Assembly (NCBI GenBank): GCA_958295745.1
Contig: OY282370.1
Location: forward strand, 2,454,548 to 2,518,547
DNA length: 64,000 nt
Source: an uncultured Acidimicrobiia bacterium
GTDB taxonomy: Bacteria > Actinomycetota > Acidimicrobiia > Spongiisociales > Spongiisociaceae
Reading direction: 5' to 3'
Made by a program: the position numbers and the translations under genes. The notes beneath the pieces were generated by a model. It made no database searches, was not told the DNA's origin, and saw only the letters and a program-made list of their open reading frames with translations. Positions 5,255-23,042 of this stretch are shown piece after piece. Every line of letters starts with the position of its first letter. Position 1 is the stretch's first letter.

Positions 5255-6211
5255 GTGGCGCTGATCGCGACGCCGGAACAGAAGGAGCGGCTCAACGAGC
5301 AGGGTTTCTTCGTTATCGAGAGCTTGTTGTCACCCGAGGAGGTGGCTGTTGTCTCGTCCGCCATGGATGAGGTGGAGGAGCGGGTGCGCCGGGAGCGGAA
5401 CATACCTCCCGAGCAGAACTTCGGCATGCGGAACGGGCTGGTGGAGCACCCTGCCATCCTCGACCTGCTCGACCGCCCCGACATACTGAGCTACATCGTG
5501 GATGTGTTCGGGTGGAACATCCAGAACCGGGACAGCGTGCTGTTGGCCACCGACGCCAATCCCGGCGGCGACCCTGCGAAGCTGTCCCTGGGGTGGCACT
5601 TCGACTACGAGGAGGAGTTCGCCGGGGCCGCGGGGGGCGGCCCGATGCCGTGGATCGACTTCAAGGTGGGCTGGTACCTGTCGGATCTCACCGAACCCGG
5701 CCACGCCACCATCCTGCTGGTGCCGGGCAGCCACCGCTGGGACGACGCCCGCCGGGCCAACTGGCAGAACGAGATCGACCTCGACCAGATATTCGAGCTG
5801 AGGGTGCCGCCCGGGAGCGCCATGCTGTGGCGGCCCACCCTGCTGCACGCCGTCACGCCCAACCTGTCGAGCACCAAGCGCAAGGCGATCTACGTCAGCT
5901 ACACGCCCCGCTGGGTCAGGCCGACCGGACACATCGACCACGATCCGGACCTGCTGGCCGAGAGCAGCCCGATCCGCCGGCAGCTGCTGGGGGCGATGGG
6001 GGATCTCTCCAACCCGATGGGTTCAGACCCCAGGAACAACCCCGAATGCCAGTACTGGTTCACCCAGAACTGGGACAGCGTGCCGCTCCGGCGGTGGGCG
6101 GAGGAGCAGCACGGGGGCCCTCCGTTCGACTGGGGAACCGGATACGGCGCCAGCACCTCCAAAGGGCCCGACTTCGTGTTCACCCAGGTGACCGATCCGA
6201 GGATGAACTGA
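5255..6211 (+). CDS. Phytanoyl-CoA dioxygenase (PhyH) family protein
   Basis: A 318-residue Fe(II)/2-oxoglutarate-dependent oxygenase-like protein. The family's facial triad is visible: HxD in WHFDYEE (about residues 114-116) and the distal His in LLHAVTPN, followed by a candidate 2-oxoglutarate-binding Arg/Lys in STKRKAIYVSY. The GTG start at 5255 is supported by aaggagg ending 6 nt upstream. Members hydroxylate small carboxylates or alkyl chains, and the substrate here is unknown. A cupin gene follows after about 65 nt, a common pairing in small-molecule catabolic loci. Confidence 0.88.
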   Translation: MALIATPEQKERLNEQGFFVIESLLSPEEVAVVSSAMDEVEERVRRERNIPPEQNFGMRNGLVEHPAILDLLDRPDILSYIVDVFGWNIQNRDSVLLATDANPGGDPAKLSLGWHFDYEEEFAGAAGGGPMPWIDFKVGWYLSDLTEPGHATILLVPGSHRWDDARRANWQNEIDLDQIFELRVPPGSAMLWRPTLLHAVTPNLSSTKRKAIYVSYTPRWVRPTGHIDHDPDLLAESSPIRRQLLGAMGDLSNPMGSDPRNNPECQYWFTQNWDSVPLRRWAEEQHGGPPFDWGTGYGASTSKGPDFVFTQVTDPRMN

Positions 6212-6278
6212 TGCCGCTCTTCCGGGCGCCCTTCTGCGGTGTCCGAGTCGGGTTGGCGCCCGGTGCGGCGGCTCGGTG

Positions 6279-6680
6279 ATGACCGCCTCCCCGTGCCCGC
6301 CGCTGGCCGTCACCGACGCCGACGGGGTGGGCTTGACCACTCCCGAGCCCTATGTCCGCCATGTCGAGGTGTTGCTGTCGCCCCTGCTCCAGGGGGAAGG
6401 GCTGGGCGACTTCGCGGTAGGGTCGTGCGAGGTGCCGCCCGGCCAACAGGGAAGCCTCCACAGCCATCCCGACACGGTGGAGGTGTGGATGTTCTACGAA
6501 GGCGAGGGGAGGGCGGTGGTCGGCGGCGAAGAGTTCGCCACCGGCCCCGGATCCGTGGTGTACACGCCGCCCGGCGCCGCCCACCAGTTCTTCAACACGG
6601 GCGCCGCCCCGGTGAAGCTGTTCTGGTTGTACAGCCCGGCGGGCGCCGAACGGGGCGTGATCGAAGCCGAGTTCATCTAG
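6279..6680 (+). CDS. Cupin-domain protein
   Basis: A single cupin barrel of about 133 residues. Motif 1 is visible as HSHPDTVEVWMFYEGEG (two His and a Glu as metal ligands) and motif 2 as PPGAAHQFFN with the third His. It may be a sugar isomerase-like, dioxygenase-like or simple metabolite-binding cupin. The ATG at 6279 overlaps a GTG at 6276. Either could be used, and no strong ribosome-binding site distinguishes them. It lies downstream of the phytanoyl dioxygenase and converges on the corrinoid operon. Confidence 0.82.
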   Translation: MTASPCPPLAVTDADGVGLTTPEPYVRHVEVLLSPLLQGEGLGDFAVGSCEVPPGQQGSLHSHPDTVEVWMFYEGEGRAVVGGEEFATGPGSVVYTPPGAAHQFFNTGAAPVKLFWLYSPAGAERGVIEAEFI

Positions 6681-6747: not shown

Positions 6748-7800
6748 CTATATCGGCGCGGTCTGTATCGGGTCCAGGGCTCCGGAGCGCCACGCCTTCA
6801 GGTAGTTGGCGCAGAACTCGTCCCGGCCCAACAGGGCGGCCTCGGCGATCCGGTGGGGCTCCGACTCGCGGTCGGCGGCGAACACGGCGCCCGGCGGGTT
6901 CATCACCGGGTCGATGATGCCGCTGTCGGCCCCCGCCTCCACCGCTAGGTTGATGAACGCGGTGTTCATCAGGCGGCGGGCGGGCAGGCCGAACGAGACG
7001 TTGCTCAAACCTCCGGTGATGTTGATGCCCGATCCGTAACGGCGCCGGAGCTCCCGGATGGCGTCCAGGGTATGCCGGACGAAGGCGCTGTCCACGGAGA
7101 TGGGGAACACCAGCGGATCGACGAATATGTCCCCCTCCCCGATGCCTTTGGAAAGGGCCGCTTCCACCATGCGGGAGGCGTTCTCGATCCGTTCCTCGGC
7201 GCCGGAGGGCATACCGTCCGCACCGGAGGCGGTGACGATCACCTTCGCTCCGTGTTCGACGGCTAGGTCGAGGGCTTCGACCCGCTCCAGGGAGGCCGAG
7301 TTGAGCATAGGCTGCACCTCCCCGTCCGAGCACGCCTCCATGCCGCTTTCGATGACGGTGATGTCGGAGGAATCCACCGATATCGGGAGGTCGGAAACCG
7401 ACCGGACGAAGCCGGCCAGCCACACCATCGCCGCCCGCTGCTCGTTCGTCCGCAGCGAGATCTCGTCCACGTTCACATCCAGGTAGTGGGCGCCGGCCTT
7501 CTCCTGTTCCAGCACCGCCCGCCGGAGGTACTCGCGCCCGATCTCGGCGCCGGGGCCGCCGCCCATCGCCGCCTCGACCGCCAAGGCGATGTGCTTGACC
7601 CGGCCCTCGTCGTAGGCCTTGCTCCTGCGCATCGTTTCGGACACCGCCAGCAGCCGGGGCGCCCCGTCCTCCGCCGTGAAGGGCACCCCCTCGACCCCGT
7701 TCTCGCTGGTGAAGCGCTTGCCCTTCTTGAGGACGATCCGGCTGGTGTGGACGTTCTCGCCGATCACGGTGAAGCGAGGCGCCGGCGCGGGCCGGTTCAT
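6748..7800 (-). CDS. Pterin-binding methyltransferase, corrinoid:tetrahydrofolate type (methyltransferase II)
   Basis: A 350-residue TIM-barrel protein of the pterin-binding family (AcsE/MtgA/MetH-like). Conserved stretches include IGENVHTS near the N-terminus, LDVNVDE, DLPISVDSSD, NSAS, and NITGGLSNVSFGLPxR with its pterin-binding Asn. In four-component demethylases this enzyme moves the methyl group from the methyl-Co(III) corrinoid protein to tetrahydrofolate. The ATG at 7800 overlaps the upstream activator gene by 4 nt (ATGA type). It is the last gene of the operon 11809-6748. The family and role are well supported by context. The methyl donor is not known. Confidence 0.88.
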   Translation of the reverse strand: MNRPAPAPRFTVIGENVHTSRIVLKKGKRFTSENGVEGVPFTAEDGAPRLLAVSETMRRSKAYDEGRVKHIALAVEAAMGGGPGAEIGREYLRRAVLEQEKAGAHYLDVNVDEISLRTNEQRAAMVWLAGFVRSVSDLPISVDSSDITVIESGMEACSDGEVQPMLNSASLERVEALDLAVEHGAKVIVTASGADGMPSGAEERIENASRMVEAALSKGIGEGDIFVDPLVFPISVDSAFVRHTLDAIRELRRRYGSGINITGGLSNVSFGLPARRLMNTAFINLAVEAGADSGIIDPVMNPPGAVFAADRESEPHRIAEAALLGRDEFCANYLKAWRSGALDPIQTAPI

Positions 7801-9494
7801 GAAGACCCCACCAGGACCGGCTGTGCGGCGGGTGCAGGCGGGAGGACGGAGGGCATCGGTTTGAGCTGGCAGCCCTCCACGAAGATATCGAAGAAGTCGG
7901 GGGTGGTTTCCAGCTCGATGTGGGTGATCCTCTTGGCTTCCTCCTCTGCCCGGCGCCGCCTCGATCTGTCCAGCAGCAGGGACCGGGCGCCGTCGATGGC
8001 GGCGTTGCCCACCTTCACCACCCTCTCCTCCGGCACCGGGGCGATCAGGCCGATGTCCACGGCGTTGCGCACGTTCAGGTAGGTGGCGAAGCCGCCCGCC
8101 AGGTAGAGCCGCTCGATGTCCGCCGGCGACACCCCGGCCGTCCGCATCACGATCAGCTGGCCGCAGTAGTTGGCCGCCTTGGCCTGGGCGAGGTTTCCGG
8201 CGTCTTCCTTCGAGAAGGTGATGCCCCGCTCCGGGACCACGTCGATGGCGGCCAGCCTGCGGTCGGCGGTGAATATGCCCCGTTCGGTCATGATGTCGCG
8301 CCGGCGGAGCTCGGCCAGTAGGTCGGTGAGGCCGGAGCCGCATATCCCGGCGGCGGGGGCGCCGCCGATGGCGGCGTAGTCGGCCGCCGAGCCGTCCGCG
8401 GCCAGCCGGATCGACTCGATCGCTCCGTCGTAGGCCCTCATGCCGTAGGTGACCAGCCCCCCCTCGAAGGCCGGACCCGCCGGGCAGGAGGCCGCGTACA
8501 TCCGGCCTCGATGGTGGAGCACCACCTCGGTGTTGGTGCCCATGTCGATCAGCATCTCGGTGCGTCCGGTCTTGCCGAGCCGCAGGGCGTCCAAGCAGGC
8601 CGCGGTGTCTGCGCCCACATGACCGGAGATGAGCGGGAGTCCGTACACCTTGGCGCGGCGGTTGGCCCGGATGCCGAGGGTGCGGGCGTCGGCCAGCAGG
8701 GCGGTGTGCCGCCGCCGTCCGGCCAGGTAGTCGTGTTCGATCAACGACTTGTAGGGCTTCTGGCCGATGCTCTGGACGCTCAACCCGAACAGGATGTCCC
8801 GCATGGTGGAGTTGGCCGCCACCACGATCTCGTACAGGCGGGAGGGGCGCTGTCCGAGGCCGGCGGTCATCTCGCGTATCCCCTGGTTGACGGCGGTCAC
8901 CGCCGCATTACGGAGCTCGCCCGCCACTCCCGGGCGGGCCTCGTAGGAGATGCGGTTCATCACGTCGCTGCCGCCGAACCCCTGAGGGTTCTCGAAGCTG
9001 CATACCGCCTCGCTGCGCCCTGTTTCGAGGTCTACCAGCTCCAGGACCACCGTGGTGGTGCCCAGGTCCACCGCCAGTCCGTAGACGGCGCCCCGGTAGC
9101 GGTCGACGACGAGGTTGCCGTACCGCACCTCGCCCCCCGCCCGGGTGACCATCGGGTCGAGATCGACGGGCCGCCCGCCGCCCCCGTCCGGCGAGTTCCG
9201 GTTCGGCGCCAGGATCCTCGGACGTCTGCGCAGAGGTGCGAAGCCGATGGGTTGGCCGCCGTTCACTATCCGGGCCTGACAGGCCAGCCGAAAGCCGCCG
9301 CGCAGGAACCCTTCGGCCTCGGTGCGGGGGGTGAGGGAATCCATCCCGCGGGTTATCTCCACCACGCACTCGTGGCACTGGCCGGTCCGTCGGCAGGAGG
9401 TGGGTACCTCGACCGCCAGATCGTCTGCGTAGTCGAAGATGGTCCGGTCGATGACCAGCGGACGGGTCCGGCCGTTGTGGGAAACGGTGCTCAC
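7797..9494 (-). CDS. Reductive activator of corrinoid protein (ASKHA/DUF4445) with N-terminal 2Fe-2S domain
   Basis: A 565-residue RACo-type protein that re-reduces accidentally oxidised Co(II) corrinoid to Co(I) using ATP. The N-terminal ferredoxin-like domain has the plant-type cluster pattern CRRTGQCHEC and a later Cys in RLACQARI. A linker precedes the ASKHA-type core, with AVDLGTTTVVLELVD as the phosphate-binding loop, LIDMGTNTE, AGICGSGLTDLLAEL and LAGGFATYLNVRNAVDIGL. These match the family order. It overlaps genes on both sides by 4 nt. Its presence beside a corrinoid protein and both methyltransferases argues for a self-contained demethylase system. Confidence 0.9.
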   Translation of the reverse strand: MSTVSHNGRTRPLVIDRTIFDYADDLAVEVPTSCRRTGQCHECVVEITRGMDSLTPRTEAEGFLRGGFRLACQARIVNGGQPIGFAPLRRRPRILAPNRNSPDGGGGRPVDLDPMVTRAGGEVRYGNLVVDRYRGAVYGLAVDLGTTTVVLELVDLETGRSEAVCSFENPQGFGGSDVMNRISYEARPGVAGELRNAAVTAVNQGIREMTAGLGQRPSRLYEIVVAANSTMRDILFGLSVQSIGQKPYKSLIEHDYLAGRRRHTALLADARTLGIRANRRAKVYGLPLISGHVGADTAACLDALRLGKTGRTEMLIDMGTNTEVVLHHRGRMYAASCPAGPAFEGGLVTYGMRAYDGAIESIRLAADGSAADYAAIGGAPAAGICGSGLTDLLAELRRRDIMTERGIFTADRRLAAIDVVPERGITFSKEDAGNLAQAKAANYCGQLIVMRTAGVSPADIERLYLAGGFATYLNVRNAVDIGLIAPVPEERVVKVGNAAIDGARSLLLDRSRRRRAEEEAKRITHIELETTPDFFDIFVEGCQLKPMPSVLPPAPAAQPVLVGSS

Positions 9495-9832
9495 CGTCCG
9501 GGCGCCTCCCCGTTGCCGCCCCGGCGGGTTTCCGCCTCGCGGCGGATGGCGGCGATCTTCTGTTGGACCCGGTCACGCGCCCTGGGATGGGTCTCCCAGG
9601 CGCTGCGGTAGTCGAAGGCGCCGTCGTGTCCGCAGGTGAGCCGGTCCTCCGTATCGTCCGGCGGCCTTATCTGGTTGCGGCACCGGAACAGGGCGGTGCA
9701 TTGATCGAGCCGGTCCCGGTAGGGGCACCTGGTGCGGGATATCGCCTCGGCGCGGGTTGCCATGTCGGTGAAGATCTCGGCGATCCGGTCGAGCCGCTCC
9801 CGGTAGGCCTGCCCGTCGGCGTTGGCGTCCAT
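9491..9832 (-). CDS. Small Cys-rich protein of the corrinoid operon, unknown function
   Basis: A 113-residue, highly charged, helix-rich protein with four clustered Cys: RCPYRDRLDQC, LFRC and LTCGHDG, spaced x8, x5 and x15. This could bind zinc or an iron-sulfur cluster. I do not recognise a family. It sits between the corrinoid protein (8 nt upstream) and the activator (4-nt overlap), so it is certainly co-expressed with the demethylase. It could be an electron donor adaptor or an assembly factor, which is inference from position only. Confidence 0.7.
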   Translation of the reverse strand: MDANADGQAYRERLDRIAEIFTDMATRAEAISRTRCPYRDRLDQCTALFRCRNQIRPPDDTEDRLTCGHDGAFDYRSAWETHPRARDRVQQKIAAIRREAETRRGGNGEAPGR

Positions 9833-9840
9833 GCCGGTTC

Positions 9841-10593
9841 TCAGGTGCGGAGCTCGGCGGCCAGTTTCTTGGCGAGCTCCACGCAGGCGAGGGCGTCCTT
9901 GCCGTAGCCGTCGGCGCCTACCTCCTCGCCGAACTCGGGGGTTACCGGCGCTCCTCCGACCATGAACCTCACCTGGTCCCGGAGGCCGGCGTCTTTGAAG
10001 TGCTCGACGGTCCTGGCCATGTTCGGCATGGTGGTGGTGAGCAGGGCCGACATGCCGATCAGGTGGGCGTCGTTCTCCCTCACCGCTTCGAGGAACTCGT
10101 CGGGGGAGGTGTTGACCCCGAGGTCGATCGCCGTGAAGCCCCCGCCCCGCAGCATCATGATGCAGAGGTTCTTGCCGATGTCGTGGAGGTCTCCCTGCAC
10201 GGTGCCCATGATCACGGTGCCGATCGGCTCGACCCCGGAGGCGGCCAGGATCGGTTCGATGTGGGCCATACCGGCTTTCATCGCCCGGGCGCTGACCAGC
10301 ACCTCAGGCACGAACACGAACCCCTCCCGGAACTTGATGCCCACGATTCCCATACCGGCGATGAGGCCGTCGTCCATGATCTCGATGGCTTCCACCCCGT
10401 CGGCGAGCGCCTGGACGGTGAGCCGGTCGACCGTGATGTTGTCTCCTTCGATGAGCGCGGCGGCGATGTCCTGCATGGCGGGGGAGGCGCGGCTGAACAG
10501 CTCGATGTTGCGTTCGATCTCTTCGGGCCGGTCGAGGAACTCCTCGATCTCGGCGCGGACGGTTTCGTTGACTATGTCAGATAGTTGGGCCAT
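9841..10593 (-). CDS. Corrinoid (B12-binding) protein of a methyltransferase system
   Basis: A 250-residue corrinoid carrier. An N-terminal helical cap (B12-binding domain 2) of about 120 residues is followed by the Rossmann-type cobalamin domain. The lower-ligand motif DxHxxG is present as GDLHDIGKN near residue 135, followed by SALLTTTMPNM and GGAPVTPEFGEEVGADGY. This is the methyl-carrying component shuttling between methyltransferase I and II. It resembles MtgC/MttC/MtaC-type proteins. Located directly after the UroD-type methyltransferase with a 109-nt gap. Confidence 0.92.
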   Translation of the reverse strand: MAQLSDIVNETVRAEIEEFLDRPEEIERNIELFSRASPAMQDIAAALIEGDNITVDRLTVQALADGVEAIEIMDDGLIAGMGIVGIKFREGFVFVPEVLVSARAMKAGMAHIEPILAASGVEPIGTVIMGTVQGDLHDIGKNLCIMMLRGGGFTAIDLGVNTSPDEFLEAVRENDAHLIGMSALLTTTMPNMARTVEHFKDAGLRDQVRFMVGGAPVTPEFGEEVGADGYGKDALACVELAKKLAAELRT

Positions 10594-10702
10594 CAGAAGG
10601 TCCTGTGTCGGGGTCTCTCTTGCTCTCCGAGCCGGGCTGGAAACCTTTCCAGCCGCTCAGCGTATACCGGACGGGCGCCGCGCCGCAAAGGTTCATTTCG
10701 GA

Positions 10703-11809
10703 TCAGGCTTCGCCGTTCTCGTCCGACGGGGAGGGCGGGGGGTCGTGGACGACCAGCCGTCCGTCGGGCCTGTGGGCGTTGGAGTAGTCGCGGGCCGAGT
10801 CGGCCAGCGCCTGCAGCACCTCCATCTTGGTGCCGAGCGGCACCGATCCTTCGGGGGCGACCCCGTCGACGCCTGCCTCGAGCACGTTCATGCATGCCTG
10901 ATAGCAGTCGTCGTAGGTGCCGCTGAACAGGGTGGTGGGGTTGTTTATGTTCCCCATCAGCGACATGCGGCCGCCCGTGATCTCCTTGGCGACGTGTGGG
11001 TCTACCTGCGACTCGAAATGGAAGCAGTCCCAGCCGGCCTCGGCGAAGTAGTCGATCCGGTCGGTGGTCTCGCCGCAGCAATGGAGGATGCTCGGCCCTC
11101 CCATCTCCTCGGTCACCTGCTGGTGCATCTCCAGGAGGAAGTCCCGGTAGGTCTGCGGGCTGACCAGCTCCCGGTTGGCGTGATCGGCCCACATCACCGC
11201 ATCGGCGCCGGCCTCGAACTGGGCGTGCGCCGACATCATCGAAGCGGGCAGCAGCACCTCCAGATAGCGGCGGATCGCGTCGGGCTCGGTGATGGTCCCC
11301 ATCAGGAAGTTCTCGATCCCCACCAGATGGAATCCGACCGACCATGGGCCGTATACCTTGCCGACGATGGCCACTTCCGGATAGCGTTTCCGCAGCAGCC
11401 TGATGGCGCCCAACACCGCCTCGAACGACGGACGTTTCAGATAATCGGACGGGATGCTGAAGTCCTCGGGATCGTGCAGAACATGGGCGCTGGTGGCCGG
11501 CCAGTTGTCGACCGTGCCCCACCACGTGGCGGCGTCGAGGGCGTCCGCCTCGAGCTGGGAATGGAACACCGGCATCACCGTATCCAGACCCAGATCTTCG
11601 TGGGCGGTGGCGGCCAGCCGGGCCATCTGCTCCGCATCGAGGTGCGCCTCCGGGAAGTACGCATCGGCGATCTCCATCGCCTCCAAGGTGATCACCGAGC
11701 TGAGGGTCATCGCCGGCACCTTGTCCACCCGCCCGCCGTAGAGGGCCGAGAGGAAACGGCGGCGGGGGGTCATCCACTCACCCGAGAGCCGTTTGAACTG
11801 TTCACCCAT
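10703..11809 (-). CDS. Uroporphyrinogen-decarboxylase-fold methyltransferase (corrinoid methyltransferase I, MtaA/VdmB-like)
   Basis: A 368-residue UroD-superfamily protein. In demethylases of this type the UroD-fold enzyme either demethylates the substrate (VdmB-like) or moves methyl to a thiol (MtaA-like). Here it is the only candidate for the substrate-demethylating component. The zinc-binding HxC motif is visible in ILHCCGETT. The usual third ligand, a Cys in a segment such as PECAVPL, is replaced: the equivalent reads APEGSVPLGTK. This may mean different metal chemistry. The start is supported by aggaga about 6 nt upstream. First gene of the operon. A candidate promoter lies about 175 nt upstream. 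Confidence 0.85.
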   Translation of the reverse strand: MGEQFKRLSGEWMTPRRRFLSALYGGRVDKVPAMTLSSVITLEAMEIADAYFPEAHLDAEQMARLAATAHEDLGLDTVMPVFHSQLEADALDAATWWGTVDNWPATSAHVLHDPEDFSIPSDYLKRPSFEAVLGAIRLLRKRYPEVAIVGKVYGPWSVGFHLVGIENFLMGTITEPDAIRRYLEVLLPASMMSAHAQFEAGADAVMWADHANRELVSPQTYRDFLLEMHQQVTEEMGGPSILHCCGETTDRIDYFAEAGWDCFHFESQVDPHVAKEITGGRMSLMGNINNPTTLFSGTYDDCYQACMNVLEAGVDGVAPEGSVPLGTKMEVLQALADSARDYSNAHRPDGRLVVHDPPPSPSDENGEA

Positions 11810-15876: not shown

Positions 15877-18144
15877 TCATGCTCTGGCGCCCGGCATCTC
15901 GAAAGGCGCCGGGTCGAGGAACCGGCGCAGCACGTTGCGGCTGACCGCCGCCGTGTTGTTGTCGTAACCGTTGTAGCTCAGGCTGCCCGACCAGGCGATC
16001 GACCCCACCGAGAACACCGCCCCCCCGCCCGGAGTCTCGAAGAACAGCATGTCGGCCCGGATACGGTCGGGCGCCTCCGGGTCGGTCACCGGCAGGGTGT
16101 CCTCCAGCGCGCCCACCATCAGGTCGTAGAGGTTGGAATGGTTCTCGGACGAAGCCACCACCAGCGCATGGGCCGGGGTGCCGAGGCCGGCGTCGGTCCG
16201 GTCGATCTCGTATCCGGCCGCCCCGTTCTGCAGCAGCCCGAAGCCGCCGATGATCTCGTCGTCCACCCCCTCGAAGATGAACGAGGCCCGCTCATCCCGG
16301 CTCGCTTCGGTCCTCCGGTAGTAGGAGCACTCGTCGAATCCCTGGGTTACGAAGCCCACCCCGGTGATCATCTGCGGGGCGCGGCCCAGGCCGATCCAGG
16401 TCCCGCCCGCCTCGCCGGTGAAGCTGTGATGCCCCTGGCTGACATCGGATATCCAGAGCCGGGGCAGGTCGGTCCGGCGCACCTCGCCCACACCGGGGCG
16501 GCGGGGGTGGTAGGCGAAGCGGTGCCAGAACCCGTTCCCGCCTATGTACATGAGCCGCCCGCCCCCCCGCAGGTAGGACTCCACGGCGTCGAAGATGCCG
16601 GTGCTGATGTATTCCGGGTGGGAGGAGGTGATCACCGTCCGATAGGGGGCGACGGCCTCCGCCCCGAGCCGGTCCAGGTCATCGTCGGTGATGACGTCGA
16701 ACGGAACCCCTTCGGCTTCCAGCCAGGCAACGATCAGCAGGTCCTGGCAGAACTTGTAGATGCGGCCCTTGGGTCGGAAGTTGGTCACCGGCCGGTGCAT
16801 GGACGAGTAGACCACCGTGCTGCCGTCGGTGTGGCTGTCGTAGGTGGACCGTCCGATCTCGGGGAAGCGGAGCATCAGCAGGTCGGTGTCGTCCAGGACC
16901 GTCAGCCTCCCGTGGATCAGCTCGTTCCACTGGCTGGTGAGCCGGATCCGCAGGTTGGCGTAGGCGCAGTAGGTGGCGGTCGGAAGCAGGAACACCACCT
17001 CCGCGGTGGGGCCGTCGGCGGGGGGCAGCACCGCGAACGGGGTGTAGAACTCGGCCCCGCCGGCCCGGAACCGCCCGGCGTAGCAGCCGCTGGGCCAGTC
17101 GTCGGGCACTTCCAAGGTGAGGCTGGTGTCCCATCCGGCGTCCGACAGGTCGTCTTCGTGGAAGTGGATGGCGCCGTACTCCTCGGGTCGCTCCCGCCAG
17201 TCCTTGGCGCCGCCCGACCAGTTGGAACCCCCGACCCCACGGGTGGGCAGGTTCCTGGTCCGTCCGTCCCAGCCGTTGCCGGATGCGTCCGCCGCGTCCT
17301 CGCCGTCGATGCCGATTGAGAAGTCCCAGTCGGCCAGGGCCCCCTCCGCCGGGGCGGCCGGGCCCCGCCCGAAGAGGTCCGCCGCCTCGGTCCGGTCGAG
17401 AACCCGGTCGAACATCCGGACCCGCTCGATTCGTCCGTTGAAACATGAGGTCGGATGGGCGCGCCCTTCCCCGTCCGTTGCGATCCGGGCGCCCATCGAG
17501 ATCGGGCCCGGCCCGAGAACGGGGGCCCGCCCGGCCGCCAGCTCGTCGTGCTCCCGCCGCGGGGCCTCGAGCAGGTTGGAAGGAATCGAGGCGGCGTGGA
17601 AGCGCACCGCCCCGTCGGGGGCGCAGCTCACGGCGACCGAGGTCCAGCGGTTTTCCTCGAGAGCGATCCGGCTGTGGAAGGTTCCGGCGCCGCCGCCCTC
17701 GTCCGTTCCCGCCCCCAGTGTCACACCCAGCCGCCCGTTCCCATCTATGAACAGGGCGATCCCCGACTCCGTGCGGTCGTCGAAGGCGCTGAAGAGGGTC
17801 TGGCGCCCCGATTCCAGACGGGTGGGGTACACGTTGAGGCAGACGGTGAACCCTCGGGGCAGCTCTGTTCCGCCCCGGCCCGGTATCAGAACGTAGGAGC
17901 CGGGATAGATCGGTTGGTAGACGGCCGGGTGCTCGCCGCCGACCGGGGTGTCGAGCTCCACCTCGCGGAAGGAGGGAGTGTGAGGCCCCGGCCCCACCGC
18001 CGGGCTCAGCAGGCGCACGATGTCGGCCCGGTAGTCGTCGGCGCCTATGCAGGACACCTTGAAGTCGATGGTCCCGCCCGGCCGGACGCTCTGGCGGTCG
18101 GCATAAGCCATGACGGCGGCTTCCGAGTTTGCCAGGTTCCACAT
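15877..18144 (-). CDS. dmfA2: N,N-dimethylformamidase large (beta) subunit-like protein
   Basis: A 755-residue protein matching the large subunit of the mononuclear-iron amidohydrolase dimethylformamidase. An N-terminal beta domain is followed by a concanavalin/LamG-like region (about residues 100-260, FTVCLNV...NGRIERVRMFDRVLD), then the catalytic part with PTATYCAYAN and TSSHPEYIS. The HPE triplet matches the His-x-Glu at the iron site of the characterised enzyme, and nearby Tyr residues could supply the Tyr ligands. The small-subunit gene lies 1 nt upstream, as expected for this pair. The real substrate may be a different small or N-substituted amide. An internal ATG at 18111 is an alternative start. 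Confidence 0.8.
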   Translation of the reverse strand: MWNLANSEAAVMAYADRQSVRPGGTIDFKVSCIGADDYRADIVRLLSPAVGPGPHTPSFREVELDTPVGGEHPAVYQPIYPGSYVLIPGRGGTELPRGFTVCLNVYPTRLESGRQTLFSAFDDRTESGIALFIDGNGRLGVTLGAGTDEGGGAGTFHSRIALEENRWTSVAVSCAPDGAVRFHAASIPSNLLEAPRREHDELAAGRAPVLGPGPISMGARIATDGEGRAHPTSCFNGRIERVRMFDRVLDRTEAADLFGRGPAAPAEGALADWDFSIGIDGEDAADASGNGWDGRTRNLPTRGVGGSNWSGGAKDWRERPEEYGAIHFHEDDLSDAGWDTSLTLEVPDDWPSGCYAGRFRAGGAEFYTPFAVLPPADGPTAEVVFLLPTATYCAYANLRIRLTSQWNELIHGRLTVLDDTDLLMLRFPEIGRSTYDSHTDGSTVVYSSMHRPVTNFRPKGRIYKFCQDLLIVAWLEAEGVPFDVITDDDLDRLGAEAVAPYRTVITSSHPEYISTGIFDAVESYLRGGGRLMYIGGNGFWHRFAYHPRRPGVGEVRRTDLPRLWISDVSQGHHSFTGEAGGTWIGLGRAPQMITGVGFVTQGFDECSYYRRTEASRDERASFIFEGVDDEIIGGFGLLQNGAAGYEIDRTDAGLGTPAHALVVASSENHSNLYDLMVGALEDTLPVTDPEAPDRIRADMLFFETPGGGAVFSVGSIAWSGSLSYNGYDNNTAAVSRNVLRRFLDPAPFEMPGARA

Positions 18145-20749: not shown

Positions 20750-21735
20750 CCACCAGGCCCGCCTTGTTCAGGGACCCAGCAGCCTTCTTGACGGGCTTTT
20801 TCAAGAACCGGGATTGGACCATCCCCGGCCTGATACTGACGCTGATCCTGCTGATGGTCTTCTTCGGCGCCCAGTCCGAGTTCTTCTGGTCGGTCAGCAA
20901 CTTCCTGAACATCGGACGGTCGATATCTATCAGGGGCGTCATCGCCATCGGGTTGACGATCGTGCTCATAAGCGGCGGGCTCGACCTGTCGATCGCGGCG
21001 GTGGCGGCCGTGGCGGGCATGGTGGCCGCCATGCTCATCGACGCAGGCATGAACGGTATCCCGGCGGGGCTGATCGGCTTGGCCGCCGCCATGGTTCTGG
21101 GCGCCGTCAACGGTTCGGTCGTCGTCAGGCTCCGCATCAACCCCATCATCGCCACCCTGGCCACCCTGCTGCTCTTCCGGGGGATGGCCTACGTGGTGAG
21201 CGGCGGCGACAACATCGTCATCGGCGTCAACACCTGGGCGTTTCTCGGGCGGGGGAACCTGTTCGGGGTGCCCGTAGCCCTGCTGGTCATGCTGGGCATC
21301 ATGGCCGCCGGCATCCTCTTCATGCGCTACTCGGTCCTCGGCAACTACCTCTATGCCATCGGCGGCAACTCCGAGGCCTGCCGCAACGTGGGGGTGAAGG
21401 TCGACCGCATCCGCTTCGGCACCTACATGGGGACGGCCCTCCTGTCGGGAATCGCCGGCGTCATCCTCATGTCCCAGGGAGGCACCGCGCAGCCCAGCGC
21501 CCTGAACGGCGCCGAGCTGGACATCTTCACCTCCGTGCTGCTGGGCGGGGTGGCCCTGACCGGCGGGCGGGGCAGCCTGTTCGGCACCCTGCTGGGGCTG
21601 TTCATCGTCGGCGTCATCACCAACGGGTTCATCCTCATCGGCCTCCAGATCTACTGGCAGGACGTCGCCCGGGGCGTGATCCTGATCGTTGCCGTGGCGC
21701 TGGACAGTCTCCGCCGCGGCGGCGGCTATCGCTGA
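20746..21735 (+). CDS. Sugar-type ABC transporter permease (RbsC/FrcC family)
   Basis: A 329-residue integral membrane protein with about ten hydrophobic segments. It carries the family signature around GLDLSIAAVAAVAGM and a C-terminal ALTGGRGSLFGTLLG, which is the cytoplasmic coupling region. The start is fixed by the ATGA overlap with the ATPase gene. It completes the importer with the upstream lipoprotein and ATPase. The P450 gene follows with a short spacer on the same strand. Confidence 0.92.
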   Translation: MTTRPALFRDPAAFLTGFFKNRDWTIPGLILTLILLMVFFGAQSEFFWSVSNFLNIGRSISIRGVIAIGLTIVLISGGLDLSIAAVAAVAGMVAAMLIDAGMNGIPAGLIGLAAAMVLGAVNGSVVVRLRINPIIATLATLLLFRGMAYVVSGGDNIVIGVNTWAFLGRGNLFGVPVALLVMLGIMAAGILFMRYSVLGNYLYAIGGNSEACRNVGVKVDRIRFGTYMGTALLSGIAGVILMSQGGTAQPSALNGAELDIFTSVLLGGVALTGGRGSLFGTLLGLFIVGVITNGFILIGLQIYWQDVARGVILIVAVALDSLRRGGGYR

Positions 21736-21779
21736 CTTCGCGGGCGCCGGTCGGCGTCCTCGCGCTCGGTGAACGACCC

Positions 21780-23042
21780 TTGCCGGTTGCGGCTGACCGG
21801 GCGGGCATCCCGGAGATCGAGGAGGCCCTCGGAGCGGCGGACTTCCAGGACCGCATGCACGAGATATACGCCGAGCTGCGGGGGCGGGCGCCGGTCTACT
21901 GGAGCCCTTCGCTCGGGTACTGGCTGGTCACCTCCTATACGCTGATCGAGGAGGTGCTGCATAACCCGGGCGGCTTCTCCAGCCACGGGGCCACCGGCGC
22001 CTATATCGAACGGCTTCCCCGGGAGGTGCTCGACTCCCTGCGGGTCATGCGGCATCACTTTCGACAGCCCGGCCTGATCCACTCCGACGGTGCCCGCCAC
22101 ACCGCCCTGCGCCGGGCGGTGAACCCCGCTTTCACGCCCGGGGCCTTGGCCCCCCTGGCGGACGACATCCGCCGCCAAGCCGCCCGCCTGCTGGAACCCG
22201 CGCAGCGGGCGGGGGAGAGGTTCGATGTCGTTGCGGTGCTGGCGGAACCCTTGCCCGTCCTGGTGATCGCCGATGTGCTCGGGGTACCTTCGAATGCCCT
22301 CGACCGCTTCCCCCGCTGGTCGATGCAGCTGGCCCGGTTCTTCACCGGCCCCCGCCCCGATCCCGCCGTTGCCCGCGACCTCGACGACGCCCTGGTCGAG
22401 TGGCGCGGGTTCGTCGCCGACCTGATCGATCAGCGCACCTCGGAACCCCGGGACGACTTCGTCAGCCTGGCTGCGGACGCCGTAACCGACGGGAGGATGA
22501 CCCGCGAGGATGCTATAGCGATCATCGTGCACGCCCTCCAGGCGGGGCACGAGACCACTACCAACCTGATCGGCGCCGCCATATATTTGCTGCTCCGCCA
22601 TCCCGACCAGCTGGCGTTGGCCAGGTCGTCGCCCGAGATGCTGGCCTGCGCCGTGGAGGAGGCGCTGCGCTGCGAGCCGGTGGCGCTGAACGCCCGCCGC
22701 ACCGCTATGCGCGACCTGGTGCTCGGCGGGCAGTCCATCTCGGCCGGCGACACGGTGGTGGTGAACTTCGCCGCCGCCCACCGTGATCCGGCCCGATACT
22801 CCGATCCCGAGCGCTTCGACATCACCCGCGGCGCGGCGCGAGGCGGCCACCTGGGTTTCGGGCGGGGCGTACATTTCTGCCTGGGCGCTCCGCTGGCCCG
22901 CCTCGAGGCGCCGATCGCGCTGGACGAGTTCTTCCGGCGGTTCCCTCATGCCTCCCTCTGCGATCCGGCCCCGCAGTGGAAGGCCCCCCGCGACCAGCGA
23001 GGCTTGAAGGAGCTGTGGATCATCCCGGACGGGCGGCCCTGA
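21780..23042 (+). CDS. Cytochrome P450
   Basis: About 420 residues, a soluble bacterial P450. Key parts are visible: the I-helix oxygen-activation motif AGHETTT, the K-helix ExxR in EEALRCEP, and the heme-binding loop GFGRGVHFCLGAP with the axial Cys. The start is uncertain. The only plausible in-frame initiation codon near the expected N-terminus is TTG at 21780, and the reading frame is open upstream through the permease. It may therefore be translationally coupled. The next gene is its probable ferredoxin. Being co-directional with the ABC importer suggests that the imported compound is the hydroxylation substrate or is derived from it. Confidence 0.92.
   Translation: MPVAADRAGIPEIEEALGAADFQDRMHEIYAELRGRAPVYWSPSLGYWLVTSYTLIEEVLHNPGGFSSHGATGAYIERLPREVLDSLRVMRHHFRQPGLIHSDGARHTALRRAVNPAFTPGALAPLADDIRRQAARLLEPAQRAGERFDVVAVLAEPLPVLVIADVLGVPSNALDRFPRWSMQLARFFTGPRPDPAVARDLDDALVEWRGFVADLIDQRTSEPRDDFVSLAADAVTDGRMTREDAIAIIVHALQAGHETTTNLIGAAIYLLLRHPDQLALARSSPEMLACAVEEALRCEPVALNARRTAMRDLVLGGQSISAGDTVVVNFAAAHRDPARYSDPERFDITRGAARGGHLGFGRGVHFCLGAPLARLEAPIALDEFFRRFPHASLCDPAPQWKAPRDQRGLKELWIIPDGRP

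Follow-up and report, generated by a model that had tools for sequence, protein, structure and literature searches.

A five-gene corrinoid methyltransferase operon in an uncultured Acidimicrobiia bacterium, a probable demethylase system with a conserved four-cysteine protein

A stretch of 64,000 nucleotides (the window) from contig OY282370.1 of assembly GCA_958295745.1, an uncultured Acidimicrobiia bacterium, carries a corrinoid methyltransferase operon of five genes on the minus strand (6748-11809), as recognized from sequence and profile matches. The operon most likely strips methyl groups from a methylated compound via vitamin B12, in a bacterium that probably lives with oxygen. It is transcribed in the order UroD-fold methyltransferase, corrinoid protein, a small protein of 113 amino acids, activator and pterin methyltransferase. 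The last three genes overlap by a few bases: the stop of the small gene shares bases with the GTG of the activator, whose own stop shares bases with the ATG (at 7800) of the pterin methyltransferase (ATGA). Among 149 genomes searched, the same order exists in 19 genomes of the window's taxonomic order, the window genome included, which argues against chance; one of these loci (L039) is cut off by the end of its contig ahead of the pterin methyltransferase. Because the operon has its own pterin methyltransferase and activator, and a separate Mtg-type corrinoid set exists elsewhere in the genome, we hold with somewhat better than even confidence that it is a dedicated demethylase which operates alongside the Mtg-type methionine/betaine system and does not replace it. 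The window genome (G000) has 3.31 Mb in 9 contigs and is given as 96.87% complete. A first-pass annotation had reported the four parts of a demethylase as adjacent; all four lie within 6748-11809, but the operon has five genes, and the one at 9491-9832 had been overlooked.

The UroD-fold methyltransferase (P0001, 368 amino acids, 10703..11809, minus strand) matches PF01208 at 192 bits. Judged from its sequence, it is a METHYLTRANSFERASE, not a heme enzyme. The protein scored 236.5 bits against the MtaA/CmuA model TIGR01463, barely above the curated cut-off of 235.4, 236.4 bits against the MtaA equivalog NF040654, below the cut-off of 400, and 44.3 bits against hemE TIGR01464, far below the equivalog cut-off of 302.95. 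Its AlphaFold model (mean predicted local distance difference test score, pLDDT, 88) has its nearest solved fold in MtaA of Methanosarcina mazei (4ay7; Z 48.9-49.1, 31-32% identity, root-mean-square deviation 1.4-1.6), with uroporphyrinogen decarboxylases at Z about 36. An assignment to HemE of the heme pathway could draw on the fact that this is the sole PF01208 match above the Pfam cut-off in the window genome; it is ruled out, with next to no probability left to it, by the hemE score, the fold and the corrinoid context. In addition, HemE-like genes of relatives score 347-364 bits on PF01208 versus 183-203 bits for the operon protein. The first-pass view of a corrinoid-dependent methyltransferase system and not of heme synthesis is thus upheld. 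A HemE-like gene was found in 5 genomes without the operon and in none of 17 with it (30 genomes scanned, namely 17 of the 19 operon genomes, all except G012 and G062, and 13 without the operon, a set that also served for MetE and PF02574). A P450 gene is present in the window genome, in which no HemE-like gene was found; its heme may come from a different biosynthetic route or from uptake.

The zinc site of this protein has been compared across a broader set of relatives. The related loci comprised 80 of 309 confirmed, 16 from the near clade and 64 from a wider family, retrieved with search patterns that exclude the zinc-site residues. In an alignment of 93 UroD-family sequences, HIC...C was present in 68 of 68 wider-family proteins and HCC...G in 19 of 19 proteins of the window's clade, in which HIC has become HCC and the third zinc cysteine glycine; CmuA has HTC...C, and the other 5 rows were MtaA, three Acetoanaerobium and one Thiodictyon. 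The corresponding residues of the window protein are H243, C244, C245 and G321, the last at the position of the third zinc cysteine of MtaA, whose HIC...C positions we take to be the zinc ligands. The H-x-C...C triad of MtaA and CmuA is absent from the clade. According to the available part of PMC10418091, S-methyltransferases of the UroD superfamily have a His-Cys-Cys zinc sphere, and in O-methyltransferases one cysteine position or both are taken by carboxylates or by residues that do not coordinate; CdmB, a haloalkane enzyme of the superfamily, is described as lacking zinc in the accessible text of PMC13222342. Since the site is altered in the clade, a donor class other than thiols is suggested: the site has been remade in the Acidimicrobiia clade, and the donor is probably not of the thiol/thioether class of MtaA but of the O-methyl, N-methyl or halomethane type.

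The same residues could also be read as a zinc site in which HCC still gives a His-Cys-Cys sphere, in an enzyme that demethylates S- or Se-methyl compounds. The protein belongs to the MtaA/CmuA family, nearest to the thiol methyltransferases, and the change from HIC to HCC adds a cysteine in all 19 sequences where the third has been lost, but two adjacent cysteines (C244, C245) on one zinc would be unusual. A sulfur or selenium role is put forward in PMC10418091 (in the part available) for the Mlps of type 1 mlp clusters, and by the definition given there a cluster of this kind has a minimum of two Mlps, with no H4folate methylase nearer than 20 kb. The operon, with a single Mlp-like protein and its own pterin methyltransferase, does not fit that definition, and S- or Se-methyl demethylation is considered unlikely.

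The remaining known parts of the operon carry the expected features. The corrinoid (B12) carrier protein (P0002, 250 amino acids, 9841..10593, minus strand) combines the B12 cap PF02607 with the Rossmann domain PF02310 and has DLHDIG at residue 135, as a carrier protein should; DxHxxG is kept in 20 of 21 Acidimicrobiia loci and in 49 of 49 wider loci. The RACo/RamA-type ATP-dependent corrinoid activator (P0003, 565 amino acids, 7797..9494, minus strand) matches PF00111, PF17651 (130 bits) and PF14574 (226 bits) and has the cysteines of this type in its N-terminal 2Fe-2S domain (C-x5-C-x2-C-xn-C), which are present in 19/19 Acidimicrobiia and 43/43 wider loci. The last gene encodes a pterin-binding methyltransferase (P0004, 350 amino acids, 6748..7800, minus strand, PF00809) of the kind that acts from corrinoid to tetrahydrofolate. 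The corrinoid protein and the pterin methyltransferase match the solved chains 1y80 and 4o0q, which presumably represent O-demethylase-type systems. From these parts we infer a cycle in which the UroD-fold enzyme, as methyltransferase I, would bind the methylated substrate and use it to methylate the Co(I) of the corrinoid protein, and the pterin methyltransferase would move the methyl group on to tetrahydrofolate for one-carbon metabolism. The activator would re-reduce Co(II) corrinoid by means of its 2Fe-2S domain and ATP, slippage to Co(II) being expected to be frequent in an aerobe, and the small four-cysteine protein probably helps to keep the cobalt reduced.

This small protein (P0005, 113 amino acids, 9491..9832, minus strand) is the most novel part of the operon. 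Its gene stands between the corrinoid and activator genes in 19/19 operons of the window's order. A corrinoid gene was found in 49 of the 64 wider loci (the 15 without one include all 8 Poribacteria) and the small gene in 48 of these 49; all 43 wider loci with an activator also carry the small gene, which lies after the corrinoid gene and before that of the activator. The titles of the wider loci include SAR202/Dehalococcoidia, Acidobacteria, Planctomycetes, Latescibacterota, Alphaproteobacteria, Gemmatimonadaceae, SAR324, Verrucomicrobia and Entotheonella, among others. Within the phylum, P0005 was found in 1 of 396 sampled genomes, the window's own, and it was not found on plasmids. In an alignment of 44 sequences from the 68 small-gene loci, some of them duplicates of each other, the cysteines 36, 45, 51 and 67 (C36-x8-C45-x5-C51-x15-C67) are invariant together with P37, Y38, F49, Y75 and W79. 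No convincing Pfam or NCBIfam match was obtained for the 44 members (best E 0.014 and 0.05), and none in the PDB for P0005 (best E 6.7 with Foldseek, 0.29 by profile); as its predicted model has a mean pLDDT of 84 and a predicted TM-score of only 0.50, no fold is claimed. The small protein, which occupies the slot of DUF1638 in Mtg sets, is most likely a metal or Fe-S cluster protein that aids reductive recharging. A broader proposal, put forward tentatively and at slightly less than even confidence, is that the four-cysteine proteins form a family of corrinoid accessory factors not described before, acting as Fe-S or metal carriers that supply RACo or shield Co(I) from oxygen, and mark an undescribed operon type in at least 8 phyla, with many marine members, and that the UroD zinc site of the Acidimicrobiia has been rebuilt for a new methyl donor.

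Other corrinoid genes exist in the window genome. The first-pass description of a system without an MttB-type enzyme holds for the operon but not for the genome, in which two MTTB-family (PF06253) genes were found at C1:901128 and C1:1998583. The first belongs to the Mtg-type corrinoid set (L189, C1 about 900-907 kb), which consists of the MTTB protein (701 bits), an MTHFR-like gene, a RACo activator, a pterin methyltransferase, DUF1638 and a corrinoid protein, with a stretch that resembles the Virulence_fact family (by eye only). The parts shared by this set and the window operon are 32-54% identical. In addition, a stand-alone gene of the betaine--homocysteine S-methyltransferase type is present at C1:1522886 (383 bits, cut-off 338), with a SAM_alpha riboswitch upstream (C1:1522647-1522726; L183:8648-8727). 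SAM_alpha preceded the homocysteine methyltransferase gene in 8 of the 14 loci scanned (out of 27), the window genome's own included; this riboswitch is of an alpha-proteobacterial type, yet the genome is Acidimicrobiia-like. Together, the Mtg-type set and the homocysteine methyltransferase resemble the Mtg system and split methionine synthase of marine roseobacters, as far as these are described in the available parts of PMC12478193 and PMC5764234. The first-pass annotation had counted absence of cobalamin uptake or synthesis as evidence against a corrinoid system, and one half of this is borne out: precorrin-8X mutase (CbiC/CobH), a marker of de novo B12 synthesis, is absent from the window genome. 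The absence points to uptake, and the host probably takes up its B12.

These genes bear on whether the operon could be a methionine synthase, in which methyl-folate would methylate the corrinoid and then homocysteine, bound by the UroD protein as MetE and MtaA bind thiols. No MetE match was obtained in the window genome, and the sole PF02574 match lies in an open frame of 358 amino acids, so the genome is without a full-length MetH; in 22 of 52 wider-family loci, UroD has a homocysteine methyltransferase gene at most 2.5 kb upstream, and in 12 of 24 such genomes no full-length MetH was seen. The other 12 of the 24, however, carry a frame of MetH length, so replacement of MetH does not by itself account for the operon. 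Methionine synthesis in the window genome appears to be provided for already by the Mtg-type set, with its own corrinoid protein and pterin methyltransferase, and the riboswitch-linked homocysteine methyltransferase, which disfavours this as the main role; no riboswitch was found at the UroD operon, and the window's clade no longer has an intact thiol-binding zinc triad. A methionine synthase is accordingly judged quite improbable.

In the preferred reading, that of a dedicated demethylase, the gene content and order, their conservation, the predicted fold and the altered zinc site are observed, and the reaction direction, the substrate and what the small protein does are deduced. Several observations weigh against this reading. 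The sole MTHFR found (35.7 bits) belongs to the Mtg-type set, so the fate of the methyl-folate made by the operon is assumed. The flow of methyl groups could be reversed, from methyl-folate to an acceptor, and C244 could step in as zinc ligand for the lost cysteine, with thiol chemistry preserved. No neighbouring gene is conserved in related genomes, and the flanks hence give no clue to the substrate; a scan of the window and of 7 of the 21 kin loci gave no regulatory RNA close to the operon. The role given to the small protein, which has no characterised relative, rests on its position and its cysteines.

Relatives of the operon differ in several respects. In the wider family, UroD is immediately preceded by a gene for 224 amino acids in 49 of 52 loci with enough flank (e.g., L064:7304-7978); this gene has no Pfam or NCBIfam match and was found in 0 of 21 Acidimicrobiia loci. 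A Virulence_fact gene is present in 18 of the 52. Tandem UroD copies precede the pterin methyltransferase in two SAR202-type loci (L098:6904-9050, L111:6855-9017). Genomes G001 and G004 have a second pair of UroD and corrinoid genes with an intact triad, beside a PhyH gene. The operon of the wider family is also present in the complete chromosome of Lucifugimonas marina. A quick UroD tree of 81 rows placed the window's clade outside 66 wider rows, and the activator tree nested it; a shared UroD clade was not rejected in the approximately unbiased test (p 0.666; the constrained tree was 7.96 log units better). Given this p value and the long branches, a swap of the UroD module onto a conserved chassis is not claimed.

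Systems of this type are already known, also from aerobes. The first-pass emphasis on anaerobes is weakened, since the available parts of PMC13222342 and PMC12478193 present Cmu, for chloromethane, and Mtg, for glycine betaine, as aerobic corrinoid systems and an Mtg-type set occurs in the same genome, which thus holds both systems. The Mtg system of aerobic marine bacteria (MtgB/C/D, RamA, DUF1638) and the split methionine synthase of Phaeobacter likewise have a separate corrinoid protein, pterin methyltransferase and RACo/RamA activator in an aerobe, methyl transfer to tetrahydrofolate and an accessory gene beside the corrinoid gene (available parts of PMC12478193, PMC5764234). In Mtg, however, methyltransferase I is MttB and the accessory protein DUF1638; the window operon has a UroD-fold enzyme, no PF06253 protein and the four-cysteine P0005, without a Pfam match. 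Type 1 mlp clusters also group an MtaA-like UroD protein, a corrinoid protein and a Ram/RACE activator, but have two or three UroD genes versus one here; the operon, outside the mlp definition, further differs in its pterin methyltransferase, its four-cysteine protein, its apparently aerobic hosts and the changed zinc site of the clade. MtaA, the methylcobalamin:coenzyme M methyltransferase, shares the fold but has HIC...C versus HCC...G. CmuA/CmuB follow the same aerobic logic of UroD-type methyltransferase, corrinoid and pterin methyltransferase (PMC13222342 in part, and general knowledge), but in CmuA the UroD and corrinoid domains are fused, whereas the operon has two separate genes; identity to CmuA by tblastn was 22%. 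The O-demethylases (OdmB, VdmB, MtvB, MtoB) and CdmB have the same layout of methyltransferase I, corrinoid protein, activator and methyltransferase II, but the window UroD component scores as MtaA/CmuA type. No publication on the operon or the small protein was found in a literature search that had most subscription papers outside its reach, and neither the combination of parts nor the altered zinc site nor the family of the small protein turned up in those parts of the literature that were available.

The setting of the operon has been examined as well. The first-pass annotation had placed it among oxygenases and a P450, and a PhyH oxygenase gene (5255-6211) and a P450 gene (within 20814-23042) are indeed nearby; from such genes the host is inferred to be an aerobe. 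The genes that flank the operon in related genomes vary by genus and include rhodanese, M24 peptidase, Na+/H+ antiporter and amidohydrolases, among others, so the oxygenase and P450 context says little. A cupin gene (6276-6680, plus strand) converges with the operon end, with a similar gene near the operon in G001 and G004. The window also encodes, at 15877-18144, a protein with an N,N-dimethylformamidase beta-like C-terminal domain and, adjoining it, a phosphotriesterase-family protein. Near relatives with the same operon are mostly titled as Acidimicrobiia metagenome-assembled genomes or simply as 'bacterium', and several are presumably sponge-derived, to go by isolate names.

Corrinoid methyl transfer requires Co(I), which is sensitive to oxygen, and because oxygen destroys it the upkeep of such systems in aerobes is a question. 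A small cysteine protein that is tied by position to the corrinoid protein and the activator over many phyla is a testable candidate for a recharging or protection factor. Overall, the operon suggests an as yet unrecognised way of using methylated compounds, which uncultured bacteria such as SAR202, and also Lucifugimonas marina, may follow.

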